A DNA stretch of 44,996 nt from assembly GCA_000209465.1 (NCBI GenBank), contig GL890589.1:1-44996 (forward strand), written 5' to 3'. This stretch comes from Lachnospiraceae oral taxon 107 str. F0167 (GTDB lineage: Bacteria; Bacillota; Clostridia; Lachnospirales; Lachnospiraceae). A program made the position numbers and the translations under genes. This document shows, in pieces, positions 2,924 through 29,822 of the stretch (within the stretch, counting starts at the first letter, position 1; every line of letters starts with the position of its first letter). The notes beneath the pieces were generated by a model. That model searched no databases, was not told where the DNA came from, and saw nothing but the letters and a program-made list of their open reading frames with translations.

Positions 2924-3058
2924 GCAAAAATTGATAAAAAAAAAGCGAGGTATATTTCCTGCTTCATCAATTTCTCCGTCTTTGGCTATCCAAAGACTGT
3001 GCTTACTTAAAAAAGTTTTCTTTTGAAAACATATATTTTGCCTTAAATTGTATATATT

Positions 3059-3067
3059 TGGTATAAT
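3059..3067 (+). promoter_or_regulatory. Extended -10 promoter element
   Basis: TGGTATAAT is a perfect extended -10 (TGnTATAAT), about 40 bases upstream of a TTG start with AAAGGAGG ahead of it. No good -35 box is present at the usual spacing, which an extended -10 can tolerate. It would serve the XRE relic. Confidence 0.45.
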
Positions 3068-3107
3068 ATATTATGCTCAAATTCATTTGTAGAAAGGAGG
3101 TATTGGG

Positions 3108-3322
3108 TTGAAAAATAATATAGTTGCTTTTAGGAGAGAGAAAAATACTGTTCAAAAAGAACTGGAAAATACTGTTCAAAAAGAACTGGCAAACACAGTT
3201 GGAATTAAAGGCAGTATGTAGTTAGGATTGAAAGAGGTGATATTGTACTTTCTTTGTAACTAGAAATTAAAATCGTACGATGGTTAGGAAATTGAATTTG
3301 TGAATTATTTGAAAGTGAATAG
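3108..3322 (+). pseudogene. XRE-family (Cro/CI-type) regulator relic
   Basis: A TTG start at 3108 follows AAAGGAGG. The frame reads KNNIVAFRREKN, then a duplicated stretch, then ELANTVGIKGSM and a TAG. Sequence beyond the stop still reads VRIERGDIVLSL, LEIKIVRWLGN and ICELFESE with further stops. These pieces line up with a standard small XRE regulator (RxxxxxSQEELA ... IERGxxxPSL ... ALG..I.ELF). A 24-bp unit occurs twice in tandem (3142-3165 and 3166-3189), adding eight in-frame codons. The gene is dead. Such regulators often sit beside mobile-element cargo. Confidence 0.7.
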
Positions 3323-3452
3323 ATTATAATTTGCATTAAGGATCTGCGGTGACTGAGATTAAATAAAGAATATGAGAGCGTTTATGTTTAGAATATTCTT
3401 TTTGATTAAGATTATATTTTATGTTATATATACATGTGAGAGGAAATGAGTT

Positions 3453-4175
3453 ATGTTTAAGATTGCTATTTGTGATGATGTGCCATCTGTATGTGATGAA
3501 CTGAAGTCTATGATTATAAATATGAAAAATAAATTTCAGTGTAGAGAGATAACTGTAGATATTTTTTATAGTGGAGAGGCTTTAATAGGTGATATTAAAG
3601 AGGAAAATTCATACGATTTAATTTTTTTAGATATAGAACTTGGAAATATAAATGGAGTAGAGGTTGGTCATATTATTCGAGAACAAATGGAAGATTATAC
3701 AACAAAAATTATATATATATCTTCAAAAGATACATATGATAGACAACTATTTGATGTTCAGCCTCTTCATTTTCTCAAGAAACCAATAGACAGTAAAAAA
3801 GTTTTTACTGATATTCAGTTGGCAATGAAAATATCAGTAAAGGAAAATAATATTTTTGAATTTAAAAATCTGAGGAATACAGTAAAAATACCGTATAAAG
3901 ATATTTTGTATTTTGAAAGTAGAGGAAGAGAGGTCGTATTAGTTGGAGTCAAAGAACGACATATCTTTTATGATAACATACAAAATTTAATTAAAAAACT
4001 ACCGAGTTTTTTTATACATCCACATAGATGTTATCTTGTAAACTATGATTTAGTTGCATGTTTTAAATTTGAAGAGTTGATTATTAGGAATGGCGACATA
4101 ATCCCAGTAAGCAGAAATAGAAGGAAAGAAATTAGAGAGATACAACTTGTATTTGAGAGTAGAGGACTGAATTAA
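3453..4175 (+). CDS. agrA: LytTR response regulator, AgrA-like
   Basis: 240 residues. The receiver domain (1 to about 120) has the acidic pair in AICDD and the phospho-acceptor Asp60 in DLIFLDIELG; LKKPI supplies the conserved Lys. The LytTR DNA-binding domain (about 135-236) carries the typical ILYFESRGREVVLV and FFIHPHRCYLVN segments. This is the AgrA/VirR/ComE architecture, which activates promoters through direct repeats. It overlaps the kinase gene by one base (TAATG), as expected for a two-component pair. Its likely target is the repeat at 5553-5588 ahead of agrD. The gene looks intact. Confidence 0.9.
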   Translation: MFKIAICDDVPSVCDELKSMIINMKNKFQCREITVDIFYSGEALIGDIKEENSYDLIFLDIELGNINGVEVGHIIREQMEDYTTKIIYISSKDTYDRQLFDVQPLHFLKKPIDSKKVFTDIQLAMKISVKENNIFEFKNLRNTVKIPYKDILYFESRGREVVLVGVKERHIFYDNIQNLIKKLPSFFIHPHRCYLVNYDLVACFKFEELIIRNGDIIPVSRNRRKEIREIQLVFESRGLN

Positions 4176-5451
4176 TGAATTTAGTACATAGTGTATTTAT
4201 TATTACAAATATATTAGGAACTTTTTCAGTATTTAAATTAATCAGTATTTTTTTTGAAAGGAAGTATGTAAATAAGTATATAGAATTCTTATCGTATACT
4301 ATGTATTTTATAGCGAGTTGCTTTATATTTATTTTTTTCCTATTCCTATTTTTACGCTTTTTTTTAATGTAGTAGCTATTTTTGTTATATCATTCAATTA
4401 TAATGGAAATATGAAAAGTAGAATAATGGCTACAATATATGTTTATTCAATTATGTTCGTAATAGAAATTGCCTGTATGATATTTTTTGAATATAAGAAA
4501 ATATTTGTTTTTGAGGTACAAGATTTAAAATCAGTATATGTTATTATTATTGTAAAAGCATTGGTTTACATAGCGTCTTTAATTTTTTCAGAAAAGAAGG
4601 CTGTTATGAAAAAAGATGTAAATATTGCCACTTTATACTGGATAGGAGTAGTGAGTGTACCTGTAAGCAGTTTAATAGTGATAATTCTGTTTCTTAATAT
4701 AGCAACCGGAAATGAACAAGTACAAATATTATTTGTTTTAGTCTGCATTACAGCAATAAATTTTGTGAGCTTTCAGTTATATAGTCATATCACATCTAGT
4801 ATTCAGAAGAAAAATAAAAAAATAATATTAAAAAAGCAGAGCGAATCGTATTTACAACAGTTGAAGATGATACAGAAAAATAATGCCAATATAGCTCTAA
4901 TACATCATGATATAAAAAATCATTTATTTATGATGAAATCTTTATATGAACAAGGAGAGATTGCATCCTGTAATAATTACTTTGATAGCTTATTATTAAA
5001 AATAGAATGTACAGAAGATGTTTGTCGCTCTGGAAATTTGATTGTTGACGGTATAGTAAATTATAAACTAAGTAGCTTAAGTGGTGTAGATATGCATATA
5101 GATGTTTGTATTCCAAAGAAACTCAAAATATTGGATGTGGATGTTACGTCCATACTTGGGAATTTATTGGATAATTCCGTAAGGGCAGTAAAAAAAGTTC
5201 AAGAATGTGGAGGCAGTCCAATGCTATATTTGAATATGCGTTATTCAAAGGGAAGGCTTTTTTTACAAGTTGAAAATTCATATAAAAATGTTAAAGTTGT
5301 AGAAGGTATATTGCAGACAACAAAAAGAGATAAAGAGAGCCATGGTATAGGAATAGAAAGTGTTAGAAATACAGTGGATAAGTACAACGGAATGGTTGAA
5401 CTAAATTTTATGGATAATATATTTTCTGTTTCAGCAGTTTTATATTGTTGA
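4175..5451 (+). pseudogene. agrC: AgrC-like sensor histidine kinase with a frameshift in a T-run
   Basis: The first frame (from 4175, about 55 residues, hydrophobic) continues in another frame that runs to 5451. The two join if one T is added to the seven-T run at 4332-4338, giving roughly 425 residues, the normal AgrC length. The N-terminal half is a polytopic membrane sensor. The C-terminal half is a GHKL kinase: the phospho-acceptor region is ALIHHDIKNHLFMM, the N-box is LLGNLLDNSVRAV, and the G-box is HGIGIESVRNTV. An internal TTG at 4318 could give a 377-residue product lacking the first membrane segments. Either the gene is broken, the reads miscount the run, or the run is phase-variable. 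Confidence 0.8.
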
Positions 5452-5495
5452 GATATTTTAAAAAATATAAATTTATAGAAAAAAGTTAGACAACG

Positions 5496-5545
5496 AGTGT
5501 AATTAAAAAGATGATTTTATTCTTTTTAATTACACTTATTTTTAT
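5496..5545 (+). terminator. Terminator after agrAC
   Basis: AGTGTAATTAAAAAG (5496-5510) pairs perfectly with CTTTTTAATTACACT (5522-5536) across an 11-base loop, followed by TATTTTTATC. A 15-bp stem with a T-rich tail is a strong intrinsic terminator, nearly symmetrical so it could act in both directions. It separates the agrAC transcript from the agrDB promoter. Confidence 0.8.
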
Positions 5546-5552
5546 CTAAAAA

Positions 5553-5588
5553 TACATTTCATTACAAATAACCATACATTTCATTACA
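5553..5588 (+). promoter_or_regulatory. LytTR (AgrA-type) direct repeat upstream of agrD
   Basis: TACATTTCATTACA occurs at 5553-5566 and again at 5575-5588, identical and 22 bp apart start to start, about two helical turns. Paired direct repeats at this spacing are the usual binding site of LytTR regulators such as AgrA. The pair lies some 90 bp ahead of the agrD start. A TATAAT at 5616-5621 is a possible -10, with no clear -35 as is common for activated promoters. AgrA binding is inferred. Confidence 0.7.
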
Positions 5589-5674
5589 TTTTTCGTTTTA
5601 TATAGATTTTTTTTATATAATTAAACCGATAATATTATATATCCAAAAATTTTTAATATCAGGAGGGAAAAGGA

Positions 5675-5821
5675 ATGTTAAAAAAATATTTACTATCAAT
5701 GGGAAAAGTAGTGGCTTTTGTTTCGTTTTTATTTGCGGTTTTTAATGCAAATACAGCTTGTGCATTTATTTATCATCAGCCGGAATTACCTGATGAAGTA
5801 AAAAGATTGCGTAAATTCTAG
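5675..5821 (+). CDS. agrD: AgrD-like autoinducer peptide precursor
   Basis: 48 residues from ATG 5675, preceded by AGGAGG with good spacing. An amphipathic/hydrophobic N-terminal leader (MLKKYLLSMGKVVAFVSFLF) is followed by NTACAFIY and an acidic, Pro-containing tail (HQPELPDEVKRLRKF). This is the AgrD layout: the tail aligns with the conserved P-containing recognition segment cut by AgrB. By analogy with Staphylococcus AgrD (CDFIM ring) the signal should be a five-residue thiolactone made of Cys29-Ala-Phe-Ile-Tyr33 plus a short N-terminal extension. The exact N-terminal end is unknown. agrB starts three bases after the stop. Confidence 0.9.
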   Translation: MLKKYLLSMGKVVAFVSFLFAVFNANTACAFIYHQPELPDEVKRLRKF

Positions 5822-5823
5822 GT

Positions 5824-6399
5824 ATGGAGCTCTTATCTCGAAGATTTGTTGAATTTATGCTAGAAAACAAAATTATACCAGAACAGGATAAAGAGATTTA
5901 TCGGTTCGGTTTTGTGCTAATGTTAAGGATTATATTGAATGTATTGACATTATTATTTATAGGTACTTGTTTTAATATGATAGTAGAGAGTATAACATTC
6001 CTGATTTGCTCTCTAATGCTTAGAAGTTATTCTGGAGGCTTTCATTCAGATAATCCTGTCATATGTTTTCTGATTTCAGTGCTAGCAACTATATCAATGT
6101 TATTTGTGATAAAATCTGGAATGTGGAGTGTACAATTTAGCTGTGCGCTTATAGTATTATCTATTGGAGTAATTTTGAGATATGCTCCAGTAGAGCATAA
6201 AAATAAACCACTTGAAGAAATTGAACGAAAAATTTATAGGAAGAGACTTTGGGGCATTGTTTGTGTACTAATATTTGTGATGTTTATGTTTATATTTATG
6301 AATAAGTTATTCCTCCTATACTCTGGTAGCATTTCATTTGGGATGACTGCGATTATGATTTTAGTAGCACGAGGAGAATTGTTTAATAAGAAGTCATAA
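5824..6399 (+). CDS. agrB: AgrB-like peptide endopeptidase/cyclase
   Basis: 191 residues, several membrane segments. The cytoplasmic motif RSYSGGFHSDNPVICF carries His74 and Cys81, seven residues apart as in characterised AgrB cysteine proteases. AgrB cuts the AgrD tail and forms the thiolactone at the membrane. It begins two bases past the agrD stop, so the pair is translationally linked. The length fits the family and the gene looks intact, so signal production seems possible even though the sensor gene reads as frameshifted. Confidence 0.92.
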   Translation: MELLSRRFVEFMLENKIIPEQDKEIYRFGFVLMLRIILNVLTLLFIGTCFNMIVESITFLICSLMLRSYSGGFHSDNPVICFLISVLATISMLFVIKSGMWSVQFSCALIVLSIGVILRYAPVEHKNKPLEEIERKIYRKRLWGIVCVLIFVMFMFIFMNKLFLLYSGSISFGMTAIMILVARGELFNKKS

Positions 6400-6486
6400 A
6401 AAAGAGCTTTCTATATTAAATTAAATGTAGTTAGTATGTCTTTGATAGTAGTTGATTGTTGCCGGAGAGAAAAAGGAGGATATTTA

Positions 6487-8631
6487 GTGGTACAAAAGAA
6501 TAGATACGAATCAATAAATCGGGGTTCGATGTTAGATGTGATGAATTATAGTTTCACAGTTACTCAAAATTGCAATTTGGCATGTAAGTATTGTTATGAA
6601 AAGAAAAATAATGATAGCAGAATGTCGATAAAAGTTGCAAAAGATGCTGTAGATTTTGCTTTGCGTTATGGTCAACATACGAACAGGGCAAGATTTGACT
6701 TCATGGGTGGAGAGCCTTTGCTTGAAATTAATATGATAGATGAGTTGATGGACTATATTAAGTTTAAATTATATGAAGAAAACCATAGGTGGTTTGGGAA
6801 TTGTAGTTTTGACTTGACAACAAATGGTGTATTATATGGTTCTGACGATGTTCAAAGGTTTGTAAAGAAAAACTTAAATTGCTTAAATATCAGCATGACA
6901 ATTGATGGAACAAAAGAAAAACATGATATGAATCGTATTTTTAGAAATGGAGAAGGTTCATTTGAAAGTGTATTGAAGAATGTTCCACTTTGGCTTGAAC
7001 AATTTCCAACTGCTGGAACAAAAGTTACATTTGCAAGTGCAGATTTGAAGTACTTAAAAGATAGTTTAATATTTCTCAATTCTCTTGGTATACAAGAGAT
7101 TATGGCTACTCTCGTGAATGAGGATGTATGGTCCGATGGAGATGAGGTCATATATGAGAGGCAACTTTGTGAGCTTGCAGATTATATGGTAGAGAATGAT
7201 TGTCCAACAGATTTTGCAGGAGGACAATTTTCAGAAAATATAGGTTTACCGTACACTAAAAACCGATTAAAAGTAAATTGGTGTAATTGTGGAGAGAATA
7301 ACTTTGAAATTGATTTTAAGGGGAATTTGTATCCATGCGTGAGATTTCTGCCATTCACACTTTCTAAAAATGAGAGAATCATTGGTAACATTTATGAAGG
7401 TGTGAATATAAATAAGCTAAGACCTTTTGAGGTATTGAATTTTGTGAATCAAAGCACAGAAGAATGTTTAAAATGTCCTGTGGCGAATGGATGTGGTTGG
7501 TGTGTTGGAAACAACTACAACAATGATGTTGGAAATACGATTTTCAGCAGATCTACAGCTATTTGTAAGATGCATAAAGCTAGGGCAAGAGCAAATGACT
7601 ATTATTGGGCAAAACTTAGAACAAATAAGGGAATTGTAAGAAAAAATATACCCAATTTAGATAGGAAAAGGTTCCAATATATTATGTTGAGTGATGACTC
7701 AGTAGGTTATTGTTTCGAGATGGAAAAGAAGAGAAAATCCAGTGCGATGAGTATTGACACATTTAGAGCAGCATTGAGGTTTGCCAGAATGAATTTTTAT
7801 ACTCCTGTAATTTTGTATGATGAAAGAGAACTGGATCAAAATTTTGAAAAAGAGCTGTTACAGTATGAGGTCATGAGAATAAAGCCTATTTCAAGAATCT
7901 CTAAAGGAGATGACGCAATTGCTGTCATGGGGATAGAAGATATTAGTAAAGTTGATGTAAATAAATTGATGATGCAGGTAATTCTTCATATCTCACAAAA
8001 GGATTTAAATATATTGAGTGAATCATGTTCAAAAATTTTTAAGGGTTCTAGAAAAATACATTTAATATTAGATGATTGGTATTGTATGAATGAGAAGAGT
8101 TATATGATATATAAGTCGGAACTAGAGAAAATCTCCGAAATAATTGTTTCTTATGCAAAAAATAAGAAATATCGTCAAATAAATGTATTGACAGATATAA
8201 TGATTAGTAGTGATAAAATGAATTGTGGTGCAGGTTATAGTAGCATGTTGGTTGCTCCAAATGGAGAATTGTACCCATGTTCCGGTTTTTATTATAGTGA
8301 TAGCTATGATAAGATTGGTGATGTTAACTCAGGCATCATAAAAGATTCAAATAAATACAATATGTCTGATGCTCCGATCTGCTCACGTTGCGATATAAGT
8401 AACTGCAATATTTGTGTTCTTAATAACATTCAGGAAACAAAGGAGTACAGAGTACCATCTATTGAGCAATGCAGCATTAAAAATATGGAAAAAACTATTA
8501 GTGTAGAATTACAAAAAAGATTGTTGGAGCTTGACCCTTCAACACCATTTGGAAGGAATATATTGAAAGAAAGTGAGTATGTAGAAGCCATAGATTCTAT
8601 AATAACCGAAAAATATATGCAATATAGATAA
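6487..8631 (+). CDS. Fused radical SAM/SPASM maturase for a CXXX-repeat-type peptide
   Basis: 714 residues from GTG 6487, chosen because AAGGAGG ends seven bases upstream; an ATG at 6436 in frame has no RBS. The radical SAM domain carries Cys29-x3-Cys33-x2-Cys36 (QNCNLACKYCYE), then a GGEP motif (FMGGEPLL). A first SPASM-type cluster region lies at about 265-370 (CNCGENNF, GNLYPC, CLKCPVANGCGWC, AICKMH). From about residue 390 comes a second module (IMLSDDSVGYCFE ... MSIDTFRAALRFA) resembling the separate CXXX-repeat peptide maturase proteins. It ends in a second Cys-rich region (CGAGYSSM, GELYPCSGF, ICSRCDISNCNIC) at about 579-665 but has no CX3CX2C. In relatives I recall, these are two proteins. 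The likely role is thioether or other crosslinking of the C-x-G core encoded at 8994. Confidence 0.85.
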   Translation: MVQKNRYESINRGSMLDVMNYSFTVTQNCNLACKYCYEKKNNDSRMSIKVAKDAVDFALRYGQHTNRARFDFMGGEPLLEINMIDELMDYIKFKLYEENHRWFGNCSFDLTTNGVLYGSDDVQRFVKKNLNCLNISMTIDGTKEKHDMNRIFRNGEGSFESVLKNVPLWLEQFPTAGTKVTFASADLKYLKDSLIFLNSLGIQEIMATLVNEDVWSDGDEVIYERQLCELADYMVENDCPTDFAGGQFSENIGLPYTKNRLKVNWCNCGENNFEIDFKGNLYPCVRFLPFTLSKNERIIGNIYEGVNINKLRPFEVLNFVNQSTEECLKCPVANGCGWCVGNNYNNDVGNTIFSRSTAICKMHKARARANDYYWAKLRTNKGIVRKNIPNLDRKRFQYIMLSDDSVGYCFEMEKKRKSSAMSIDTFRAALRFARMNFYTPVILYDERELDQNFEKELLQYEVMRIKPISRISKGDDAIAVMGIEDISKVDVNKLMMQVILHISQKDLNILSESCSKIFKGSRKIHLILDDWYCMNEKSYMIYKSELEKISEIIVSYAKNKKYRQINVLTDIMISSDKMNCGAGYSSMLVAPNGELYPCSGFYYSDSYDKIGDVNSGIIKDSNKYNMSDAPICSRCDISNCNICVLNNIQETKEYRVPSIEQCSIKNMEKTISVELQKRLLELDPSTPFGRNILKESEYVEAIDSIITEKYMQYR

Positions 8632-8644
8632 GGGAGTTAATGCT

Positions 8645-8908
8645 ATGAATAAAAACACAACATATATACCTATTGAAATGGCATACAGAGCAAGGGAAAT
8701 TTATGGAAGACAAAGGGCATTGAAAGACTTGTTGTTGAGTCTTCCGTTTCATGATGAAAAATGCCATTTGAAAGAAAAGATAGAGGGAGAAATAGAAGAT
8801 GTTGCTTTCGACATAGAAGATTGGTGGGCTAGCATTAGCAAAATAACTAGTAAAACATTTTCCGAAAATGCAGAAATTTTTTTCGACAGTGCTACTATTG
8901 TTGATTGA
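8645..8908 (+). CDS. Small CXXX-repeat peptide modification-system protein
   Basis: 87 residues. No catalytic motif is visible. The C-terminal part (EDWWASISKITSKTFSENAEIFFDSATIV) resembles the small accessory protein found beside CXXX-repeat radical SAM maturases, in which a WW pair precedes a short Glu/Asp-rich end. The position supports this: it starts 13 bases after the maturase stop and precedes the precursor gene. A precursor-binding or chaperone role is possible but not shown. The family link is by recollection of the pattern and needs a profile search. Confidence 0.6.
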   Translation: MNKNTTYIPIEMAYRAREIYGRQRALKDLLLSLPFHDEKCHLKEKIEGEIEDVAFDIEDWWASISKITSKTFSENAEIFFDSATIVD

Positions 8909-8948
8909 TTCAAGATTCTTTTTAATAGAATTCTTGTGATTAATATTA

Positions 8949-8965
8949 GATTAGTTTTTCTAATC
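8949..8965 (+). promoter_or_regulatory. Short hairpin in the precursor leader region
   Basis: GATTAG (8949-8954), five T, CTAATC (8960-8965) is a perfect 6-bp hairpin. It lies 28 bases before the precursor start and just ahead of the GGAAAGGAGG ribosome site. An imperfect longer hairpin (around 8909-8937) precedes it. It could be an mRNA-processing or stability element that raises precursor expression relative to the maturase; this is inference. Confidence 0.35.
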
Positions 8966-8993
8966 AAAATTTTGTGGAAAGGAGGAAAAAAAC

Positions 8994-9131
8994 ATGCTAA
9001 GTAATGATTACATTATTGGAGCCGACAACGAAGGCTTAGATGAAGTAGTTCCATTAGGATGTTGGGGCTGTGGTGGTTGCAAGGGTTGCTCCGGTTGCTC
9101 TGGCTGTAAAGGTACATCAAGAAGAAGCTAA
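8994..9131 (+). CDS. RiPP precursor with six C-x-G triplets
   Basis: 45 residues from ATG 8994, behind a very strong GGAAAGGAGG site. An acidic leader (MLSNDYIIGADNEGLDEVVP) is followed by a core reading CWG-CGG-CKG-CSG-CSG-CKG, then TSRRS. Six Cys are spaced every third residue, each followed by any residue and Gly. The gene is next to a radical SAM maturase and its small partner, so it is the obvious substrate. The triplet period differs from the four-residue CXXX period I know for this maturase class. There is no GG cleavage site at the leader/core border (VVPLG-C). The mature product is probably a compact multiply crosslinked peptide; activity is unknown. Confidence 0.88.
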   Translation: MLSNDYIIGADNEGLDEVVPLGCWGCGGCKGCSGCSGCKGTSRRS

Positions 9132-9269
9132 GTATTAGAGAGAAATTGTGAGATTGTGTGTAAATGCAGATGATATATCAGTTTGCAGCTTATATGCAAT
9201 CTCCTTATCTTATAGTTGGAAAATATTATTTTTTGAAATTACCATGAAGAGAGAATTGAGAGCAAGAAA

Positions 9270-10961
9270 ATGAAAAAGATGATGCAAATTTTAAAGAGTA
9301 TGTTTCCGTATTTATCCAGACATAGAGCTACCTTTATGTCAGTTATATGTTTTACATTTATAGGGAAATTTACGGAGTTAATTCAGCCTTTTTTGGTAGG
9401 AAATATAATTGATCATGTTACAAAAGGGGATTTTACTGGCATAGATATATTGATTATTAGTATTTGCATTGTAGGGGTAACATCATCATTCCTAACTTAT
9501 TTTTCTACATTTCAATTAACTAAAATGAGCATAGAAGTTTCTGCTGATTTAAAGACAGATTTTTATAATGATATGATAATGCTCGGAATGGAAAAATTTG
9601 ATAAAATTCAATCTGGAAAATTTTTATCAAGATACGAAACAGATATCAACAGCGTCGCAGAGTTTTTGTCTAGTCATTTTGTGAATTTTGTGATGAATTT
9701 TTTTAGTACGCTAATTATAATATATTTTTCGTTTTCAATAAGTGTAGTTATGACATTTATAGTTCTTCTGTTTTTGCCAATTAGTCTAGTGATTGAATAT
9801 TTCTTCTCTACAAAAATAAAAAAGATTATCCAAATCATTAGAGGAAAAAATGAAAAATATTTGACACTTTTTAATGAAACAATAAATGGTATTGTTGAAA
9901 TAAAACATTTGCAGAGAGAATGTTTGTTCAAAGAAAAGATGGCAAACCATCAAAAAAGTTTTATGAAAGATTTAGTAGGTCTAAGTGCTACCAGAAATAT
10001 TGGTAATTTTTCTAAAAAAACTGTATTTATAGCATTAGAGTTTTTGATATTTATTGTAGGAGTACACTATATTAAATCAAATGGGTTAAGCATTGGTGTA
10101 TTTATTGCATTTTCAAATTATGCAGCACATTTAAACAATACCATGTCAACAACAATTAGAACATTAGGATATTTTAATGAAGTATCAGTTTCTATAAATA
10201 GAATACAAGAAGTTAGAAAGTCTATGATAACTCATGAGAATGAGAATAAAAGTGTTCTCGAACAAGAAGATATATTTAAAGAAAGCGATATATATTTTCG
10301 AGATGTGGATTTTGCATATGATGAAAAACGCATGGTATTTAAAAAACTTAATTTGACACTGGATCACATCAACTCAAATGTTATTGTTGGTGACAGTGGA
10401 TTAGGAAAGTCTACATTGTTTAAGATATTACTAAAATTATATCCGGTAAAAAGAGGAGATGTTATTATTGGTAATTTAAGTATATCTGATATTTCTGCCA
10501 ATGAAATTAGAAAGAACATAGCATATATCCCTCATAATCCTTATTTTTTTAATGTTAGCATTAAGGAGAACATCTTATATGCTAATCCCAATATAAAAGA
10601 TAATGAAATAATAGATATATTAAATAAGGTCAATTTATATGAATATATATCTTTACTGCCTAATGGCATAAATACGATTATTCAGGAATCAGGTAAAAAT
10701 TTTTCGGAAGGACAAAAACAGAGGTTAAATATCGCAAGAGCAATAGCCAAAAAACCAAGTATTTTTCTTTTTGATGAGCCTACATCTGCTCTTGATTTAG
10801 AGAATAGAAATGATATATTAAAAATTATTGATGAAATAAACAAAGATAGTACGGTTGTAATAATAACTCATGACAGGGATATTGCCGAACAACTCAGTCA
10901 AAGCATTTTGATTGAGCTAAATAAAAGAGCATCTTTTGAGGAGGGTATAGAATATGAATAA
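9270..10961 (+). CDS. ABC exporter, fused membrane and ATPase domains
   Basis: 563 residues. An N-terminal ABC-transporter membrane domain (about 1-310, six segments) is followed by a nucleotide-binding domain with Walker A GDSGLGKST, signature FSEGQKQRL and Walker B IFLFDEPTSALD. This is the half-transporter (homodimer) layout of peptide and lipid exporters. No C39 peptidase domain precedes the membrane part, so if it exports the C-x-G peptide the leader must be removed by another protease. It lies 138 bases after the precursor gene and overlaps the next ABC gene by eight bases, suggesting one operon. Confidence 0.88.
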   Translation: MKKMMQILKSMFPYLSRHRATFMSVICFTFIGKFTELIQPFLVGNIIDHVTKGDFTGIDILIISICIVGVTSSFLTYFSTFQLTKMSIEVSADLKTDFYNDMIMLGMEKFDKIQSGKFLSRYETDINSVAEFLSSHFVNFVMNFFSTLIIIYFSFSISVVMTFIVLLFLPISLVIEYFFSTKIKKIIQIIRGKNEKYLTLFNETINGIVEIKHLQRECLFKEKMANHQKSFMKDLVGLSATRNIGNFSKKTVFIALEFLIFIVGVHYIKSNGLSIGVFIAFSNYAAHLNNTMSTTIRTLGYFNEVSVSINRIQEVRKSMITHENENKSVLEQEDIFKESDIYFRDVDFAYDEKRMVFKKLNLTLDHINSNVIVGDSGLGKSTLFKILLKLYPVKRGDVIIGNLSISDISANEIRKNIAYIPHNPYFFNVSIKENILYANPNIKDNEIIDILNKVNLYEYISLLPNGINTIIQESGKNFSEGQKQRLNIARAIAKKPSIFLFDEPTSALDLENRNDILKIIDEINKDSTVVIITHDRDIAEQLSQSILIELNKRASFEEGIEYE

Positions 10962-11694
10962 AATAGAAATTTTAAATTTGAAAAAATCTGTAAAAACAGA
11001 GAAAACCACAAAAGATATTCTTTGTAATCTTACATTAACCATTCCTAAGGGAGAAGTTTTTTGCATAATGGGCTCATCAGGAAGTGGAAAAAGTACATTG
11101 CTTAAGATATTGGGTGGTATGGATAGTATAAGTGAAGGCGAAGTTATTTTTTTTGAGAAAAAAATGACCTCTTTTGATGAGTCGGATTATGAAAGACATC
11201 GTAGAGATGACATAGGGTATATTTTTCAAGATTTTAATTTACTTGATGGTCTTACAATAAAAGAGAACATAATTTTACCATTGACATTACAAAATTGCGG
11301 ACCAGAGATAATAGAAGCAAGATATAAAAATCTTTTGGGCTTTTTAGATATAAAAGATTTTGAAAATAGCAAACCAGATAAAGTATCCGGTGGAGAACAA
11401 CAAAGAGCGACAATTGGGCGTGCATTAATAAAATCACCAAAGGTGATTTTGGCTGATGAACCGACCGGCAGTTTGGATACCAGGAACATGAAATCCTTTA
11501 TAGAATTAGTAAAAAATGTAAATCAAAGATTCTATACGACAGTGGTCATTGTGACTCATGATACTTTTGTGGCAAGTAACTGTGATACAGTGGCATTTAT
11601 TGAAGACGGACACATTGGAGAGATTATACATAAGTCTGATTTTCAAGAGGATTTCCATAATAAAATCATAAAAATATTTACACAAGTGAGGTAA
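10954..11694 (+). CDS. ABC transporter ATP-binding protein (BceA/LolD type)
   Basis: 246 residues. Walker A is GSSGSGKST, Q-loop YIFQDFNLLDGLT, signature VSGGEQQRATIGRAL, Walker B VILADEPTGSLD, followed by the switch His in IVTHD. The sequence style (ADEPTGSLD) is that of the MacB/LolD/BceA group that pairs with FtsX-type permeases. It overlaps the exporter gene by eight bases and the permease begins six bases past its stop. Likely role: energising the 11701 permease for self-protection against the peptide, or for antimicrobial-peptide resistance. Confidence 0.88.
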   Translation: MNKIEILNLKKSVKTEKTTKDILCNLTLTIPKGEVFCIMGSSGSGKSTLLKILGGMDSISEGEVIFFEKKMTSFDESDYERHRRDDIGYIFQDFNLLDGLTIKENIILPLTLQNCGPEIIEARYKNLLGFLDIKDFENSKPDKVSGGEQQRATIGRALIKSPKVILADEPTGSLDTRNMKSFIELVKNVNQRFYTTVVIVTHDTFVASNCDTVAFIEDGHIGEIIHKSDFQEDFHNKIIKIFTQVR

Positions 11695-11700
11695 TTAGGT

Positions 11701-13593
11701 ATGGGAATTGATTTAAATAAAATAGTCAGTTTTCGTAAATACTACAACTCTTTTATGTTGTTCGGAATATTGATTGCCGTATTTCAAATGTTTATACAGT
11801 TTAATTTTAATGCCGATGCAATAAAAATAATGAGTGAGGTAGACTATACAATACCTATATGGTTTACATCTTTAAATATCATCATGATATTATTTTTGTT
11901 TGTTTATCAGCATTATATTAGTCTATATATTTTTGATGAGCAAGTAAAAAAAATTGGTATTTTATTTGGAACTGGAGTTAATAAGGGATATCTTTGTAAA
12001 TATCTATATAAAAAGTGGTGTTATTTTTTCCTGATTTCAGTGATTGGTGGGATTTCGCTTGGAACAGTCTTTTATGTTTTGATATTTCATGTACTAAAAA
12101 TAGGAGATTTTATTTTGGTAAAGGACATATCTGTTGTCGGGAGTTCAACGACTTTTGCAGTAGTTTTGATAACTTATATTGTAAATATTATTTATAGGAT
12201 AAGATTTATAAAAAAATCTGAAATCAAGGAACTGCTTACCTATGAAAGGAAAGTAAAAAAAGTTAAATATCCTAAGATATACACTGCATTGGGTGTGGTA
12301 TCTCTTTTAGTCGGAATATATTTTTTAAAGATTTACCAAGTGACATCCTATGGAGTTCTCATAGCACTTATACCTATACTCTGCTTTACTCTAGCCGCAT
12401 ACTTTCTGATAATGACTTTTTCGGATTGGTATGAGGGGCTTCTTTCCTTATCTTTGAAGAAATACTTAAAAAGACTTTTCTTTATTTCAAGGTTGAGGAT
12501 TGAGTATAAAGATTATGCCAAGTTACTTGTTTTATGTGCAACAAGTATTATTTTTGGCTTATATATTTTATTTATGAATATTGCTATGTCAATAACACCG
12601 ATAGAAAATTATGATGTAGAAAATCCATATGATTTTGTTGCTGTTATAGATGGAATCAATGATGAGAAACTGAACGATATTCAAAAATTTGAGCTCGAAT
12701 TTACTGAGCAAATCGAAAGTTCTCAAATGCTTTATATTCAAGAGGCAAAAATAAAATGGGATAATGATGATTACAACTATTCTATAAATATAATGTCGGA
12801 AAAAAATTACAGTGATTTGACAGGTAAGTCCTTGGGGATTTCAGGCAATGAAGCTATAGTGTTGACCCAGATGAGTGAAGACAACTATTCAATGAGTATT
12901 TCAAAAGAAAACGGAGTGAAATGGGGATTTCAACCACCTGGAGATACCGAGGTGAAGATAAATGAACAAATCTATAATTTTAAGATTGTCGGGGAAATAT
13001 GGGAAGAAGTGTATAACATAGAAAGGCAAGATAAAAGGACATACATCATTCCGGATAAATATTATGAAAGCCTATTTGTAGATGGAAAAAAACAGAGTGT
13101 GCAGTATTTTGTCAAAGTTAAGGAAGAATTTAGAGAAACTCATACAGACACAATGTTTTCAAATCTCAAGAAAATTGCTGATAATGTAACAGCAAAATCA
13201 GATGTATTGAATTTCAAAAAAGAAAATAGATATGCAGTATCGGTATTGTTGTTTGTTCCGATAGTTTTGATTTTTATTGCACTTTCAGGACTTATCTCTT
13301 TAAGATTGGATCAAAATTTTAGAAAGAACAAACTTAAATATAAGCGATTACTATACTTGGGATATACGAATATACAGGTCTTGTCTGAGCTAAAAAAAGA
13401 AATATTCATGTTATTTTTTATTCCATTTATATTGGGAACGATTTTGTCGGTTATATATACAATATTTTCTATAAATCAAATAAATACAAGTTTACTTGTA
13501 GTTATATGTACAGCTACATTGATATTCTCTTGTATAGAGATTATTTTCTACAAATTAGCTATAATATTTTTGAAGAAGAACATTACTTTATAA
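11701..13593 (+). CDS. FtsX-type ABC permease, BceB-like
   Basis: 630 residues. Four membrane segments occur in the first 235 residues and more follow near 240-310. A large soluble loop (about 318-500, Asp/Glu-rich, extracellular) precedes the last membrane block (about 515-625). The size and the large late loop fit BceB/VraG-type permeases, which with a BceA ATPase confer resistance to peptides acting on lipid-linked wall precursors. No dedicated BceRS two-component pair is present. Placement at the end of the RiPP operon points to immunity; this is inference from position. Confidence 0.8.
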   Translation: MGIDLNKIVSFRKYYNSFMLFGILIAVFQMFIQFNFNADAIKIMSEVDYTIPIWFTSLNIIMILFLFVYQHYISLYIFDEQVKKIGILFGTGVNKGYLCKYLYKKWCYFFLISVIGGISLGTVFYVLIFHVLKIGDFILVKDISVVGSSTTFAVVLITYIVNIIYRIRFIKKSEIKELLTYERKVKKVKYPKIYTALGVVSLLVGIYFLKIYQVTSYGVLIALIPILCFTLAAYFLIMTFSDWYEGLLSLSLKKYLKRLFFISRLRIEYKDYAKLLVLCATSIIFGLYILFMNIAMSITPIENYDVENPYDFVAVIDGINDEKLNDIQKFELEFTEQIESSQMLYIQEAKIKWDNDDYNYSINIMSEKNYSDLTGKSLGISGNEAIVLTQMSEDNYSMSISKENGVKWGFQPPGDTEVKINEQIYNFKIVGEIWEEVYNIERQDKRTYIIPDKYYESLFVDGKKQSVQYFVKVKEEFRETHTDTMFSNLKKIADNVTAKSDVLNFKKENRYAVSVLLFVPIVLIFIALSGLISLRLDQNFRKNKLKYKRLLYLGYTNIQVLSELKKEIFMLFFIPFILGTILSVIYTIFSINQINTSLLVVICTATLIFSCIEIIFYKLAIIFLKKNITL

Positions 13594-13847: not shown

Positions 13848-13887
13848 GAGGACTTTGCATGTCAAAATGCAGAAGTCCTCCTTTTTT
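13848..13887 (+). terminator. Terminator after the RiPP operon
   Basis: GAGGACTTTGCAT (13848-13860) pairs with ATGCAGAAGTCCTC (13867-13880) through a short gtcaaa loop with one bulged base, followed by CTTTTTT. This is a strong intrinsic terminator. About 250 bases between the permease stop and this hairpin hold no recognisable gene. Confidence 0.85.
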
Positions 13888-13936
13888 GTTCAAAAAATTG
13901 TATTTGAAATTTTGGATAAAAAGGAGGATTTCACAA

Positions 13937-14335
13937 ATGACAGATGATAGAAAATATATCTATGTAAAAGGTGAAAAGATATATGTATCCGATGAAATAT
14001 ATAAAGCATATAAGAAGCAAGTTAATCATGAGGCTTATTTAAATAAATCAGATAAAAAACATAAGGTTTATGGGTATGAGGATTACAAGATTGATTTGAA
14101 TTCCGTTGTAGATGAAGATGTGGATATCGAAAAAATCATTGAAACTAAAATGAGAATCAAGGATCTATATCAGGCACTGCGAAAGCTAAATGATGAAGAG
14201 CTAAAGGTGATATATTCTTTGTATTTCAAAAAAATGACTATTCGTGATTTAGCAAAAGAGCAACAGGTATCTTCTAAGAAGATTTTTAGTTTTAGAAATA
14301 AGATTTTAAAAAAGCTAAGAGAGATACTTAAATAG
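13937..14335 (+). CDS. Sigma-70 region-4-like regulator of an integrative element
   Basis: 132 residues from ATG 13937, which follows AAGGAGG; a longer frame from 13859 runs through the terminator and is unlikely. The C-terminal half (LYQALRKLNDEELKVIYSLYFKKMTIRDLAKEQQVSSKKIFSFRNKILKKLREIL) has the helix-turn-helix layout of sigma region 4. Similar small sigma-like proteins sit before the integrase end of Tn916/Tn1549-type and serine-recombinase elements, where they control excision or transfer genes. It is followed by its own terminator. Confidence 0.75.
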   Translation: MTDDRKYIYVKGEKIYVSDEIYKAYKKQVNHEAYLNKSDKKHKVYGYEDYKIDLNSVVDEDVDIEKIIETKMRIKDLYQALRKLNDEELKVIYSLYFKKMTIRDLAKEQQVSSKKIFSFRNKILKKLREILK

Positions 14336-14344
14336 CAACTAATG

Positions 14345-14387
14345 AGTAGGGAGCAGACCGGAGTTGTAGTTTGTTCCCTACTTTTTT
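14345..14387 (+). terminator. Terminator after the sigma-like gene
   Basis: AGTAGGGAGCA (14345-14355) pairs with TGTTCCCTACT (14372-14382) with one G-T pair, followed by a run of six T. Intrinsic terminator ten bases past the stop codon. Confidence 0.8.
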
Positions 14388-14519
14388 AAAAAAATTTTTA
14401 AAAAGTGGAAACAAAAGCATCTGAAAGTAAGGTTTATATATAGAGGGGAAAATTTCACCTTTGGAAAACTGAATATATTTTTGAAAATATAAGAATCTTG
14501 TACCTTGAAAGCTAAATAG

Positions 14520-14843
14520 ACCCAAACAGGACATTAACCATTTATGGAGCATCTGTCAACAAACGCTAAGACCTTTCTGCTGAGAAGATTAGGATTTTAG
14601 GGAATAACCATGTACAATCTGGCAATCTCGGTTTAAACACATACTTGCAAATACAAAGGATAAAAGAAAGTGAGCGACAAATTTGTACGACAAAAAATAG
14701 GTTTGGCAGCCTATTTGCGATGATGTAAATGGGGATAATGATACTTCTTTAGTGAAAGCCGGCTCATCTTGAAAAGAGGCGGAGGTGAAATTCCTATGTT
14801 GTCAGCCAAGACACCTGTTAATGTCAGAAAACTTAAAGACATT
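14520..14843 (+). other. Gene-free stretch with hairpins; possible structured RNA or recombination site
   Basis: About 500 bases (14388-14896) separate the sigma-like gene from the next ORF. They hold no convincing reading frame and are richer in G and C than their surroundings. Visible structure: AAATAGG/CCTATTT (14695-14701 with 14710-14716), the palindrome ACAAATTTGT near 14678-14687, AGCCGGCT near 14758-14765, and AATGTC/GACATT (14820-14825 with 14838-14843). The segment between 14755 and 14815 (ggcggaggtgaaattcct and neighbours) reads like conserved non-coding RNA. It could be a regulatory RNA controlling the recombinase or a folded attachment region. No family recognised. Confidence 0.35.
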
Positions 14844-14896
14844 TGAATTTTAAAAATCAGGGTAAACATACTTATAATAGAAATACAAGGAGATTT

Positions 14897-15055
14897 ATGA
14901 AAAGCGATATAACAAAATTACAGATTAATACAATTATAGCTTTAGCATTGATGAGATATTTATACAGAAAAAGAGAAATATCAGAAAAGGTTTATCGAAA
15001 AATCTTACAAAAGTATGGAAAGGTATTGATTGCCAAAGAGAGTAAATTATGTTAA
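14897..15055 (+). CDS. Small protein upstream of the recombinase
   Basis: 52 residues from ATG 14897, chosen because AAGGAG sits just before it; an in-frame start at 14843 has none. The sequence KSDITKLQINTIIALALMRYLYRKREISEKVYRKILQKYGK is helical, with a hydrophobic stretch followed by a short basic tail. It resembles the small SHOCT-like proteins that often precede large serine recombinases in Clostridia, possibly directionality or accessory factors. It ends 37 bases before the recombinase. Function unproven. Confidence 0.6.
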   Translation: MKSDITKLQINTIIALALMRYLYRKREISEKVYRKILQKYGKVLIAKESKLC

Positions 15056-15092
15056 TATAAAATAACAAAACGAGGAGTACAAAAAAGATGAA

Positions 15093-16790
15093 ATGAAGGT
15101 AAAGAAAAGAGTAGTGGCTATATATGCGAGAGTATCGACTGAGCATGAGGCTCAAATTTCTGCATTGGGTAATCAAATTCAGTATTATGATGATTTATTT
15201 GAAAAACATCCTGAGTGGGAACTATATGATCGCTATATAGATGAAGGAATAACAGGTACTTCTGTTAAAAAGAGAAAAAATTTTATGAGAATGATGCAAG
15301 ACGCATCAAAAAATAAATTTGATCTTATTGTAACAAGAGAGGTATCTAGGTTTGCAAGAAATACAGTTGATACACTACAGCAAACTCGTATATTAAGGCG
15401 AGAAGGTGTAGAAGTATATTTTACAGAAGATAACATATGGACAATGAATGATGAAGATGGTGAATTAAGACTGACAATTATGGCGACACTTGCACAAAAT
15501 GAAAGCAAGAAAACATCCGTCAGAGTAAAAGCAGGACAAATGATTTCATTTAAAAATGGTGTTCTATATGGAAACGGTAATATACTAGGGTATGACAGAA
15601 TTGGTAAAGAGTATGTGGTTAATGAATTGCAAGCAAGAACGGTGCGTAGAATTTTTGATTTATACTTAGATGGAAATGGTGTTAGAAAAATTCAATTTGT
15701 ACTGGAAAAAGAAGGACATTTAACAGCTACAGGACTTACAAAATGGCAACCTGGGAATATCAGCAGAATATTAAGGAATTCCTTTTATTGTGGTACAATA
15801 GTTTATCGTAAGCAATTTGTTCCGGATTTTTTAGAACAGAAAAAAATAAATAATTTTGGTGAGGTTGATAAAGTCATTGTTGAAGGTAGACATACCCCAA
15901 TTGTTACAAAAGAACAGTTTGAAAAAGTTCAGCAAATACTTAGTAGCAAGTCAGAGTCTGTGCATAATAAAGGCTGTAGAGGGAAAAAAATCTCCAAAGA
16001 TGTTTGGTGTCGTAAAATGAAATGTGAATGTGGTAGTTCCTACAATCGTGTTACATGGCACAAATCGTCTGAAGGACCTCAATATGCATACCAATGTTAT
16101 AGCCAGATAAGGACAGGATCATTTAAAACTCGTGAGAGAAAAGGACTTAGTACTGAAGGAATTTGTGTAACTAAAATGGTTCCAAGATGGAAATTAGAAG
16201 TTATGGCTGATATAATATTTCAAAAATTTTGGAATGATAGAGAAGGAGTCCTTGCAATTGCGAACGAAATGCTGGACAATTGCTATGAAAACGAACATGA
16301 TAACGAGGTGTTAGATCGTAAGCGTGATTTAGAAGATAAAATGGAACTATGGAATCGAAAGTATAACAATCTTTTAGACATGCGAATGGCTGGAGAAATT
16401 GAAAAAGACAGGTACGACGAAAAGCGTGAACAAATTCTGAAACAACAGCAACATCTGAAAAAGCAGTTAGAAATAATAGGTGGAGAAGCCGGTTTATCAG
16501 ATGACATATATATGGACAAAGTTGAAATTCTTAAATACGGCTTAGAACAGAATTTCAATTTTTCAACGAGACATATTCCGGAAGAAGTTATTGATGCATT
16601 TATAAAGGAAATTATTGTATGTCAAGATGGATTTATATGGAAATTGAATTTAACTCCAGATGACGAGTTAAAGATGCAAGTGGACGGAAGAACAGACAAT
16701 TATACAGTAACCCAAACAGAACTTTCCTCTGATATGACACAGCAGCACAGGCAGCAATTGCGGAGAGAAAGTAATATAATATATAGATAG
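15093..16790 (+). CDS. Large serine recombinase (site-specific integrase)
   Basis: 565 residues. The resolvase domain starts AIYARVSTEHEAQ with the nucleophile Ser of the ARVS motif near residue 15, followed by a TREVSRFARN motif near 81-90. The recombinase domain follows (NELQARTVRRIFDLYLDGNG, NSFYCGTIVYRK). A zinc-ribbon region has CECGSSYNRV and further Cys, then a coiled-coil stretch (about 400-470) needed for synapsis. This is the TndX/TnpX-type integrase of mobilizable elements in Clostridia. It is intact and carries its own terminator. It marks the right end of the element whose transfer genes are lost; the attachment core was not identified. Confidence 0.93.
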   Translation: MKVKKRVVAIYARVSTEHEAQISALGNQIQYYDDLFEKHPEWELYDRYIDEGITGTSVKKRKNFMRMMQDASKNKFDLIVTREVSRFARNTVDTLQQTRILRREGVEVYFTEDNIWTMNDEDGELRLTIMATLAQNESKKTSVRVKAGQMISFKNGVLYGNGNILGYDRIGKEYVVNELQARTVRRIFDLYLDGNGVRKIQFVLEKEGHLTATGLTKWQPGNISRILRNSFYCGTIVYRKQFVPDFLEQKKINNFGEVDKVIVEGRHTPIVTKEQFEKVQQILSSKSESVHNKGCRGKKISKDVWCRKMKCECGSSYNRVTWHKSSEGPQYAYQCYSQIRTGSFKTRERKGLSTEGICVTKMVPRWKLEVMADIIFQKFWNDREGVLAIANEMLDNCYENEHDNEVLDRKRDLEDKMELWNRKYNNLLDMRMAGEIEKDRYDEKREQILKQQQHLKKQLEIIGGEAGLSDDIYMDKVEILKYGLEQNFNFSTRHIPEEVIDAFIKEIIVCQDGFIWKLNLTPDDELKMQVDGRTDNYTVTQTELSSDMTQQHRQQLRRESNIIYR

Positions 16791-17705: not shown

Positions 17706-18671
17706 GTGATACAGAGTATGATATCGAAACAAATGGCAGACAAGGAATTTGCATTATTAGAAGATCAAGATCATTTTGAAACGGTGTGGTCAATAATGCT
17801 TCCAAATGTTGAGAAGTATGTAGATAATTTTCTTGTAAGTGTATCTAATTTTGGCAATCTGGGAGTTATGGATTACGCATATAGTACATTTGTTAAGGAG
17901 CTTATTGATAAAAACGAAAAAAGGTCTGATAAGTATCATGATATTTTTGATCTTAGCTTATTTGAAGATGAATATGCAATGGATCTTGACGATTTCAAAA
18001 ACACAACTTTGAAGAAAGAGTGTGATGTTATTAATAAAACGCTTCAAAGTAAAGCGGAAGCACTTAATGACTGGAAGAAAAAATTCTATGGATCACCAAG
18101 TCAGAAGGTTTTTGATACTTGCTATAATTTTATTTCTTTTGGAACTGATTATAATCAGGAAATGTCAGAGGAGCGCATGTCAGAAATAGAAACGATTGAA
18201 GATAATGGCTTGTCTGAAATGAATGAAGATGCATGCTATCAGACGGGCGTATTTGGATATGGAATAGTCTCAAATATACTAAATCATATGTATCCTCGTG
18301 TTTTTCCAGGAAATTATAAGAAGGGTATTTTTTCGTTGCTGTTTTTAACTGGAACGGATATGAAAGGCATTGATATGCCAAGTGATAGTTCAGAGTTTTG
18401 TATGGTGAAGGATGAAGTACATTCGAAAACAGGAACTATAGAAGTTGAACATAACTATTTTTATCCATATCAGACATTTGGATTGTATACATATAGGATC
18501 TTTAATGTTCTAAATGAAAAAATACAGAGTAGATTTCAGAAGGAGTTTCCAGCTGAATATAGATTTTTACTTACAAATGCTTTTTATGATTATTTTACAG
18601 TTGAATTCCAAGATAAAATTACAACACTTACAGGAAATGATGATGTATTGAAATTCAATACCCCTTGGTAA
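17706..18671 (+). CDS. Unrecognised protein, first gene of a RecQ/NERD-helicase/kinase operon
   Basis: 321 residues from GTG 17706, chosen because GGAGGT (17693-17698) sits seven bases before it; that GGAGGT lies inside a frame starting at ATG 17691. I do not recognise the family. It is acidic and mostly helical with no membrane segment. Notable segments are CYQTGVFGYGIVSNILNHMYPRVFPG (about 178-203), followed by GIFSLLFLTGTD, and YDYFTVEFQDKITTL near the C-terminus. It overlaps the helicase gene (stop TAA shares its last base with an ATG), so it is probably an obligate partner of that helicase, perhaps the sensor or effector. Confidence 0.7.
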   Translation: MIQSMISKQMADKEFALLEDQDHFETVWSIMLPNVEKYVDNFLVSVSNFGNLGVMDYAYSTFVKELIDKNEKRSDKYHDIFDLSLFEDEYAMDLDDFKNTTLKKECDVINKTLQSKAEALNDWKKKFYGSPSQKVFDTCYNFISFGTDYNQEMSEERMSEIETIEDNGLSEMNEDACYQTGVFGYGIVSNILNHMYPRVFPGNYKKGIFSLLFLTGTDMKGIDMPSDSSEFCMVKDEVHSKTGTIEVEHNYFYPYQTFGLYTYRIFNVLNEKIQSRFQKEFPAEYRFLLTNAFYDYFTVEFQDKITTLTGNDDVLKFNTPW

Positions 18672-20290: not shown

Positions 20291-20294
20291 TACC

Positions 20295-22007: not shown

Positions 22008-22037
22008 GGCTCTTGTTGTTTTTGAAAGGAGAAATAA

Positions 22038-23225: not shown

Positions 23226-23228
23226 AAT

Positions 23229-23263
23229 AATAAATGGCTCAACGTGGTGGTGAGCTATTTATT
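23229..23263 (+). terminator. Hairpin after the kinase gene
   Basis: AATAAATGGCTCA (23229-23241) pairs with TGAGCTATTTATT (23251-23263) with one G-T pair across a 9-base loop. The plus side lacks a clear T-run, so termination may be weak. It starts three bases after the stop. Confidence 0.6.
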
Positions 23264-23318
23264 GAATACTTTGAGAAAAAATACAATATAAAGATAATTG
23301 TCAAGAGATACAACACAT

Positions 23319-23490
23319 ATGAAAAATAATATTAAATTGGATATAAATAATGCTTGTGATGCAATAACAATGTTATATCAAATAAAAAGAAGATAGATAT
23401 ATTCGTGATGATATTGTTGAAGGTGAACAAGAACATCCATATAAATCTGAATATGCTAAAGTAAATAATTATTTATATACAGAGAAATAA
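23319..23490 (+). pseudogene. Small gene fragment with a frameshift
   Basis: An ATG at 23319 reads KNNIKLDINNACDAITMLYQI and stops at a TAG in an A-rich run. A shift there continues as RYIRDDIVEGEQEHPYKSEY and AKVNNYLYTEK to TAA 23488-23490. The acidic, coding-like text on both sides of the break suggests a former protein of about 55 residues. Not recognised. It lies in the 314-base gap between the kinase operon and the McrB-like gene; otherwise the gap holds nothing visible. Confidence 0.35.
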
Positions 23491-23539
23491 GTTTATTATA
23501 AAATTGATAAATAATAGTAAGTTTTAGAGGTGAAGTATA

Positions 23540-27773: not shown

Positions 27774-27798
27774 TCATTATAAAGAGGATTTGTAAATT

Positions 27799-28566: not shown

Positions 28567-28630
28567 AATATAACGATAAAGAGTTTAATTTAAAATATAT
28601 ATTTTATATTGCAATGAAAGGGGATGTATC

Positions 28631-29743: not shown

Positions 29744-29822
29744 TGTTATAGATACATAGTATCATGATTATTTCATTAACCAAAGAGTTATTTGAACAAT
29801 TAACTTTTACATGGAGGTAAAT

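Follow-up and report, generated by a model that had tools for sequence, protein, structure and literature searches.

The genome of Lachnospiraceae oral taxon 107 str. F0167 (GCA_000209465.1; 70 contigs, 95.8% complete) harbors a set of agr quorum-sensing genes followed directly by a gene cluster for a ribosomally synthesized and post-translationally modified peptide (RiPP) with a radical S-adenosylmethionine (SAM) maturase. The window, by which we mean the whole stretch of DNA analyzed, comprises 44,996 nt (contig GL890589.1, positions 1–44,996), and all window coordinates below refer to features on the plus strand unless a gene of another genome is named. Between positions 3453 and 13593 are found, in this order, agrA, agrC, agrD, agrB, the maturase, a small partner, a precursor, an ATP-binding cassette (ABC) exporter, an ABC ATPase and a permease. 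The original prediction had described this gene content, shared strand and location, and open reading frames (ORFs), Pfam and NCBIfam families and phmmer bear them out, with one reservation: the agr genes are all present, but agrC is divided between two frames. On balance we lean toward the view that this is an agr module whose agrDB signal operon has acquired the RiPP cluster as downstream cargo, expressed from an AgrA-driven promoter as a single transcript.

Four genes make up the agr block. The agrA-like response regulator (3453–4175) combines a receiver (PF00072, 50 bits) with a LytTR DNA-binding domain (PF04397, 60 bits) and is 74% identical to agrA of G475, another genome of the genus. 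The adjacent agrD and agrB genes each score above the cut-off of their families: agrD (5675–5821; TIGR04223, 50.2 bits, cut-off 19) encodes the cyclic peptide signal precursor, with a predicted ring of CAFIY, and agrB (5824–6399; PF04647, 131.6 bits, cut-off 23; 54% identity to G475 agrB) encodes the peptide-cyclizing membrane endopeptidase. The sensor kinase gene agrC (4175–5451) is broken into a 65-aa N-terminal ORF (4175–4372) and a remainder carrying HATPase_c_5 (4318–5451). Residues 1–48 of G475 AgrC, the product of a single uninterrupted ORF of 426 aa, are matched in the frame of 4175, and residues 44–425 in another. From agrD to the permease, all genes are separated by short same-strand gaps or overlaps (2, about 87, 13, 85, 138, −8 and 6 bp, with the maturase counted from 6487).

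The maturase is a CXXX-type radical SAM/SPASM protein with a fused C-terminal CXXX_matur domain (6487–8631), a CxxxCxxC motif, and scores above cut-off for both TIGR04115 (435 bits, cut-off 350) and TIGR04119 (194 bits, cut-off 150). Its ORF opens at 6436; the GTG at 6487, seven bases past AAAGGAGG, is the more likely start and leaves a gap of about 87 bp after agrB. Models of thioether-forming enzymes match it below their cut-offs (PapB, 214 bits, cut-off 340; SCIFF, 139 bits), and its closest solved structure is 5wgg (E 3.4e-24), which we take to be CteB. In the maturase tree it sits on a long branch and in no starred set, and the tree assigns it no sister. The small partner protein (8645–8908) resembles TIGR04116 and falls below the cut-off of that family (20.3 bits, cut-off 50), yet it is homologous by a profile of relatives, in which 13 of 15 candidate partner ORFs were used (L079 and L091 were left out): among the open frames of the window this frame ranks at the top, with E 1.5e-6 against 0.036 for the next.

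The 45-aa precursor (8994–9131) has the core CWG CGG CKG CSG CSG CKG, that is, six C-x-G repeats with a cysteine at every third residue instead of the every-fourth spacing of CXXX systems. No NCBIfam precursor family matches it above cut-off. A thiocillin-type precursor (NF033482, 21.9 bits, cut-off 25) was considered and rejected, since none of the families reported for the neighboring genes is that of a thiopeptide enzyme. A second C-x-G-type precursor lies beside a CXXX maturase ORF in G544 (L080, minus strand 8959–9105); that maturase ORF has no N-terminus and adjoins a transposase-like gene, and no agr gene is present within 10 kb. The window thus shares with CXXX-repeat systems (TIGR04115/TIGR04116/TIGR04119) both maturase domains above cut-off, a small partner next to the maturase, and a cysteine-rich precursor and ABC exporter downstream, whereas its cysteine period and the agr genes in front set it apart. 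Given the partner below cut-off and the cysteine period of three, we regard the maturase, on sequence grounds, as a member of the CXXX family and the system as a whole as a variant. Maturase, small partner and C-x-G precursor were identified as such in the original prediction, and the families, profile and sequence agree.

The ABC exporter (9270–10961) consists of a permease and an ATPase domain (PF00664, PF00005), with no peptidase family reported. It overlaps the gene for an ABC ATPase of the BceA/MacB type (10954–11694; PF00005, 112 bits; TIGR03608, 199 bits, below the cut-off of 255). The BceB/PsdB-like permease that follows (11701–13593) is without a Pfam family match and is similar by phmmer to the lantibiotic ABC permease PsdB (9ugg, E 1.2e-13, best stretch residues 10–288), which upholds the earlier description of the two genes as a BceAB-like pair. 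PsdB-like permeases protect against cell-wall-active peptides, and self-protection is the probable role of the window permease as well.

Upstream of agrD lies an AgrA/LytTR-type direct repeat, CATTTCATTACA-N10-CATTTCATTACA, with copies 22 nt apart (5555–5588). The probable −10 element of the agrD promoter, TATAAT (5616–5621), begins 27 nt past the repeat and is kept in four of four aligned agrD promoters. With up to three mismatches allowed, the repeat dimer occurs once in the window and in none of 100 shuffles; in the whole genome of the strain there are two copies, each before an agrD, and none for a backward-pattern control. A 41-base pattern drawn from four agrD promoters and scanned in six genomes of the genus gave six sites in four of them, with none for the backward control. 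Since the four pattern-defining sites are among the six, the newly found ones are those of G1165 and G766. The next gene is agrD at five of the six sites; agrDB is missing from the sixth (G766), where the repeat directly precedes a homologue, judged by eye, of the gene behind agrB in G475. Chance as the origin of the repeat was ruled out by the shuffles and by conservation in the genus. No second AgrA-type repeat was found in the intergenic stretches before agrA, the maturase, the precursor or the exporter (scanned stretches included 2950–3460, 6380–6500, 8900–9000 and 9130–9275), except for one chance-like 9-of-10 pair before agrA. The earlier claim that the only AgrA-type repeat drives agrDB therefore stands as to uniqueness in the window, position before agrD and conservation; that AgrA binds it is what we infer from position, spacing and conservation.

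The layout of hairpins is consistent with transcription from agrD into the RiPP genes. Between agrAC and agrDB, after agrC, lies an AT-rich, terminator-like 17-bp hairpin (5495–5537; −18.6 kcal/mol, z −8.0, 0 of 200 shuffles equal) that includes a 16-bp perfect inverted repeat. Downstream of agrD, the first strong terminator is an intrinsic one followed by six T (13848–13880; −18.4 kcal/mol, z −4.4, 0 of 200 shuffles), which would end the proposed transcript. The stretch between agrB and the maturase (6395–6495) folds no better than its shuffles (z −0.09), and neither this comparison nor a consensus scan found a terminator there, in line with the original prediction. Folding of 8905–8995 is likewise unremarkable (z −0.35), and a weak hairpin between the precursor and exporter genes (9150–9203; z −1.8 over 9130–9272, 9 of 200 shuffles equal) could be a site of mRNA processing or attenuation. 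Blanks in the consensus scan are weak evidence because it missed the strong hairpins at 5495 and 13848; its three sites compare with a shuffle mean of 2.7, and the sole plus-strand site lies inside the exporter gene. Sigma-70-like promoter matches are uninformative either way, being as frequent in this AT-rich DNA (71) as in shuffles (73.4). With a repeat before agrD, neither a terminator nor a second repeat before the maturase, and a co-directional run ending at 13848–13880, coupling by read-through is the simplest reading, and a single transcript of ~8.2 kb from the agrD promoter is plausible.

Comparison within the genus points to agr as a block with variable genes behind it. The window agr block shares 69% DNA identity with one copy in G475, in an alignment that extends from the start of agrA (3452) to 6370, and homology gives out no more than 30 bp short of the agrB 3′ end, in a comparison that took in about 300 bp past the gene. 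Behind the G475 agr genes are three co-directional ORFs, secreted or lipoprotein-like by eye and with no Pfam family above cut-off, and no radical SAM ORF was detected by profile in 20 kb. Yet another neighbor adjoins the additional, decayed agr copy of G475 and the copy on contig C4 of the strain itself. Since the genes behind agr differ in this way, the RiPP cluster can be described as the cargo of the window copy. The copy on C4 (G000:C4:175497-175537; L219/L222) is an orphan agrD that shares its AgrA-type repeat and predicted CAFIY ring with the agrD of the window, and its agrB is truncated, with a transposase-like ORF alongside; this orphan agrD could feed signal precursor to the AgrB of the window.

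In the mechanism that we propose, AgrB would turn AgrD into a cyclic peptide, and AgrA, once activated by a kinase of the AgrC type, would bind the repeat at 5555–5588 and switch on the agrD promoter. A single transcript would run from agrD through agrB, the maturase, the partner, the precursor, the exporter and the BceAB-like pair to the terminator. Cross-links in the six C-x-G repeats would be introduced by the maturase, probably as thioethers, as suggested by its relation to the PapB and SCIFF maturases. Release of the peptide would fall to the ABC exporter, and protection of the producer to the BceAB-like pair.

CXXX-type maturases are rare. TIGR04115 is found above cut-off in five of 391 genomes of the class, TIGR04119 in four of 397 genomes of the family, and a CXXX maturase in one of 398 genomes of the phylum, the strain itself being counted in each case; a further genus, picked for its matches in the class search, has one in five of 11 genomes. 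We compared the window with 17 other CXXX-type places in 14 genomes or records, including one genome_contigs locus, one plasmid and one phage-labelled fragment. The maturase is partial at L078 (the same place as L007), L080 and L083. Left out of this count were L084, L085 and L086 (23–27% identity to the window maturase and below the TIGR04119 cut-off), L036 (29%), phage matches H3–H11 (27–32%) and further rows below cut-off. Although AgrB is encoded somewhere in eight of the 14 genomes or records, the nearest to a maturase is about 37 kb away (G544). The DNA upstream extends for at least 7.9 kb at 14 of the 17 places, and L078, L082 and L093 have less on that side. The plasmid, phage and viral collections contain no CXXX cluster with agr: CXXX maturases are encoded on pAPRE01 and on a phage-labelled fragment of 6.8 kb, neither of which matches AgrB, and viral_contigs yielded none. 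Neither G475 nor G766, the two among the five congeners that the maturase search covered, has a CXXX maturase above cut-off. L035 and L093 harbor split CXXX systems in which TIGR04115 and TIGR04119 are neighboring genes with a TatC gene downstream. The ORF upstream has a twin-arginine-like start by eye, and in L035 the CXXX core lies inside that ORF, which suggests export of these CXXX peptides by the twin-arginine (Tat) route.

Other radical SAM maturases occur near agr elsewhere in the family, where 102 of 299 genomes have an AgrB match at E up to 1e-15. Around the 100 best-scoring AgrB places listed, with the strain itself and G475 excluded and up to 9 kb taken per side (many sides were shortened by contig ends), ten loci have a radical SAM ORF, always on the agrB strand, nine downstream and one upstream (L173). 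NCBIfam classing covered nine of the ten. The CcpM maturase (TIGR04068) is above cut-off in four genera, at L127 (G417), L132 (G656), L173 (G530) and L192 (G648), and L185 has a short CcpM ORF of 272 aa below cut-off. These four loci resemble the window in having agr and a maturase at most 9 kb apart on one strand, the maturase being upstream in L173, and L127, L132 and L192 also have a cysteine-rich precursor-like ORF beside the maturase; they differ in the maturase family, in the precursor and accessory genes and in the larger gaps after agrBD. An S8 peptidase was looked for and found in L192 only. The clearest row of agr and radical SAM genes besides the window is L113 (G474:C4, minus strand 4952–11691), in which agrA, agrC (both assigned by eye), agrB, agrD, a carrier protein gene, a TIGR04463-like maturase (198 bits, cut-off 525) and an S8 peptidase are tightly packed. 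L177 has an AlbA-like maturase (159 bits, cut-off 850), and L116 a PapB/nif11-like maturase (186 bits, cut-off 340) at a distance of 7.3 kb.

An excess over chance near agr was shown for CcpM clusters only. At E up to 1e-80, the 299 genomes contain 23 CcpM places, merged into 19 clusters, of which at least five, in four genomes, have a listed AgrB no more than 10 kb away; with rounded genome sizes and contig ends ignored, 0.28 would be expected, and none of 200,000 draws reached five. Counted by genome, four of 16 compare with the same expectation of 0.28 (P 6e-5).

The surroundings of the cluster are rich in mobile genes. IS66 genes lie in front of it (1–2200), and a sigma-70 region 4 protein and a large serine recombinase directly behind it (13859–16790); the segment with the agr and RiPP genes may thus belong to a mobile element. 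Further downstream (18665–30908) is a defence-like island with a RecQ-like helicase, a NERD-helicase, a kinase, MrcB_N/AAA (McrB-like), DUF2357/PDDEXK_7 (McrC-like), HNH and type II restriction-like proteins. Upstream of agrA, a small ORF of 37 aa (3108–3221) without a Pfam match combines a well-formed Shine-Dalgarno site with a match to an extended −10 promoter, and contains a perfect 24-nt tandem duplication (3142–3189).

Several of the comparisons weigh against coupling of signal and product in the window. agrB is absent within 10 kb of the maturase at all 17 other CXXX-type places, so that the conserved neighborhood that had been set beforehand as a test of the original prediction was not found, and agr paired with a CXXX maturase has to date been seen once. 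Among the other agr loci, the SCIFF maturase at L098, although above cut-off, is probably a coincidental neighbor, and the radical SAM ORF at L189 is probably trivial, a 93-aa end fragment that is activase-like by eye. SCIFF maturase genes are widespread in clostridia. Near-identical parts recur in some CcpM clusters of different genera, so that not all of these cases are independent, and the five include the truncated maturase of L185. Twenty displaced control regions (370 kb) held no radical SAM ORF; scaled from the agr loci (10 in 1.58 Mb), roughly 2.3 would have been expected, and this set of regions is too small to establish enrichment. In addition, a separate promoter of the maturase may be hidden among the promoter-like sites, an intact AgrC sensor kinase is not encoded in the window, and decay is seen elsewhere in the genus: in G766 (L223) agrDB has been lost and agrA and agrC appear to survive as a fused remnant, while G1165 (L221) retains agrD with no AgrB match at E up to 1e-10. 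The single case, the different genes behind agr in the congener, and the IS66 and recombinase genes on either side would all fit a chance juxtaposition, in which a CXXX cluster with its own promoter came to lie beside agr on a segment rich in mobile genes, functionally unlinked to it. We consider this rather unlikely, as only about 87 bp, with no significant structure and no second repeat, separate agrB from the maturase, and CcpM clusters are found near agr above expectation.

The frame break in agrC is the weakest link of the proposed mechanism. If real, it would deprive the strain of the normal route for sensing its own signal, and response to the signal may have been lost; because agrC is frame-broken in the assembly, the "quorum-controlled" of the original prediction may not hold in this strain. 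It is accordingly a serious possibility, though one we rank below an even chance, that the link was once functional and is now decaying, with agrC a pseudogene and the agrDB and RiPP genes constitutively low or silent. The frame break set against the intact agrC of G475, the orphan agrD with its truncated agrB on C4, and the losses in G766 and G1165 would fit such decay, and they keep loss of function alive as a rival. On the other side, agrA, agrD, agrB and the entire RiPP cluster are open in the window, and the break in agrC sits within a T-rich stretch, where it may be an assembly error or, possibly, reversible slippage. A different doubt concerns the product, since its antibiotic role is a deduction from gene content: the C-x-G peptide could be a second signal, a metal-binding peptide or a surface peptide, with the BceAB-like pair acting as a sensor-like or export partner. 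We think this improbable in view of the similarity of the permease to PsdB and the protective role of such permeases, but SCIFF ranthipeptides have been tied to clostridial quorum sensing (Chen et al. 2020, as reported in the available parts of PMC8748961 and PMC11316579). Coupling of the agr signal to the RiPP product, as the original prediction had it, is thus favored by the repeat, the absence of a terminator, the co-directional run and the occurrence of agr near other radical SAM maturases, while the unconserved pairing and the broken agrC count against it.

Precedents exist for each half of this arrangement. In Clostridium acetobutylicum, the LanM-like gene CA_C0082 is a neighbor of agr whose expression was shown to be dependent on agrA, on agrB and on a synthetic signal, and the discussion of the same article mentions agr genes within larger lanthipeptide clusters (PMC10301443, available text). 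A RiPP-synthetase-like gene beside agr is thus common to both, but CA_C0082 is described there as lacking catalytic residues, lying downstream of agrCA and predicted to form its own transcriptional unit, whereas in the window a whole radical SAM cluster lies downstream of agrDB. Rgg/SHP control of radical SAM RiPPs in streptococci has been reviewed (PMC13361665, in the part available to us). There, too, peptide quorum sensing adjoins and controls radical SAM RiPP operons, a control that is a proposal for the window; those systems use an Rgg regulator and a short hydrophobic peptide (SHP) instead of a membrane kinase and a cyclic peptide, and other maturases. Regions labelled as hybrids with an autoinducer are listed for Anaerobutyricum (PMC13303155, accessible portion); they likewise join agr-type autoinducer genes with another biosynthetic cluster, but in that portion they are region labels only, with no mechanism given and no radical SAM class mentioned alongside the autoinducer. 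Within the partly covered literature naming both, we met no region joining cyclic-lactone-autoinducer and ranthipeptide. Nor did a literature search, broad but partial in its coverage, find agr in front of a CXXX-type maturase and C-x-G precursor. The original prediction had called the pairing undescribed; on the sources available this appears right for agr with a CXXX maturase, while quorum control of radical SAM RiPPs and agr beside RiPP-type genes are each already known, from the agr-controlled LanM-like gene and the Rgg/SHP operons. As no publication was found with the TIGR CXXX family names or "CXXX repeat peptide", the product class looks little studied.

More broadly, agr could be an exchangeable quorum-sensing front end in the family, with an agrD promoter that drives any cargo and into which CXXX, CcpM, TIGR04463-like and AlbA-like clusters have been plugged independently, so that cyclic-peptide signals would broadly control radical SAM peptides as Rgg/SHP does in streptococci. 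This is offered tentatively, as a conjecture we would not yet back. If the coupling in the window is real, quorum control of radical SAM RiPPs would take in agr systems in addition to the Rgg/SHP systems of streptococci, and would do so in a large family of bacteria where agr genes are frequent. The predicted cyclic peptides would then be a lever for silent radical SAM clusters, and agrB a bait for finding such clusters. The C-x-G core, for its part, would present the CXXX maturase family with a substrate of different cysteine spacing.

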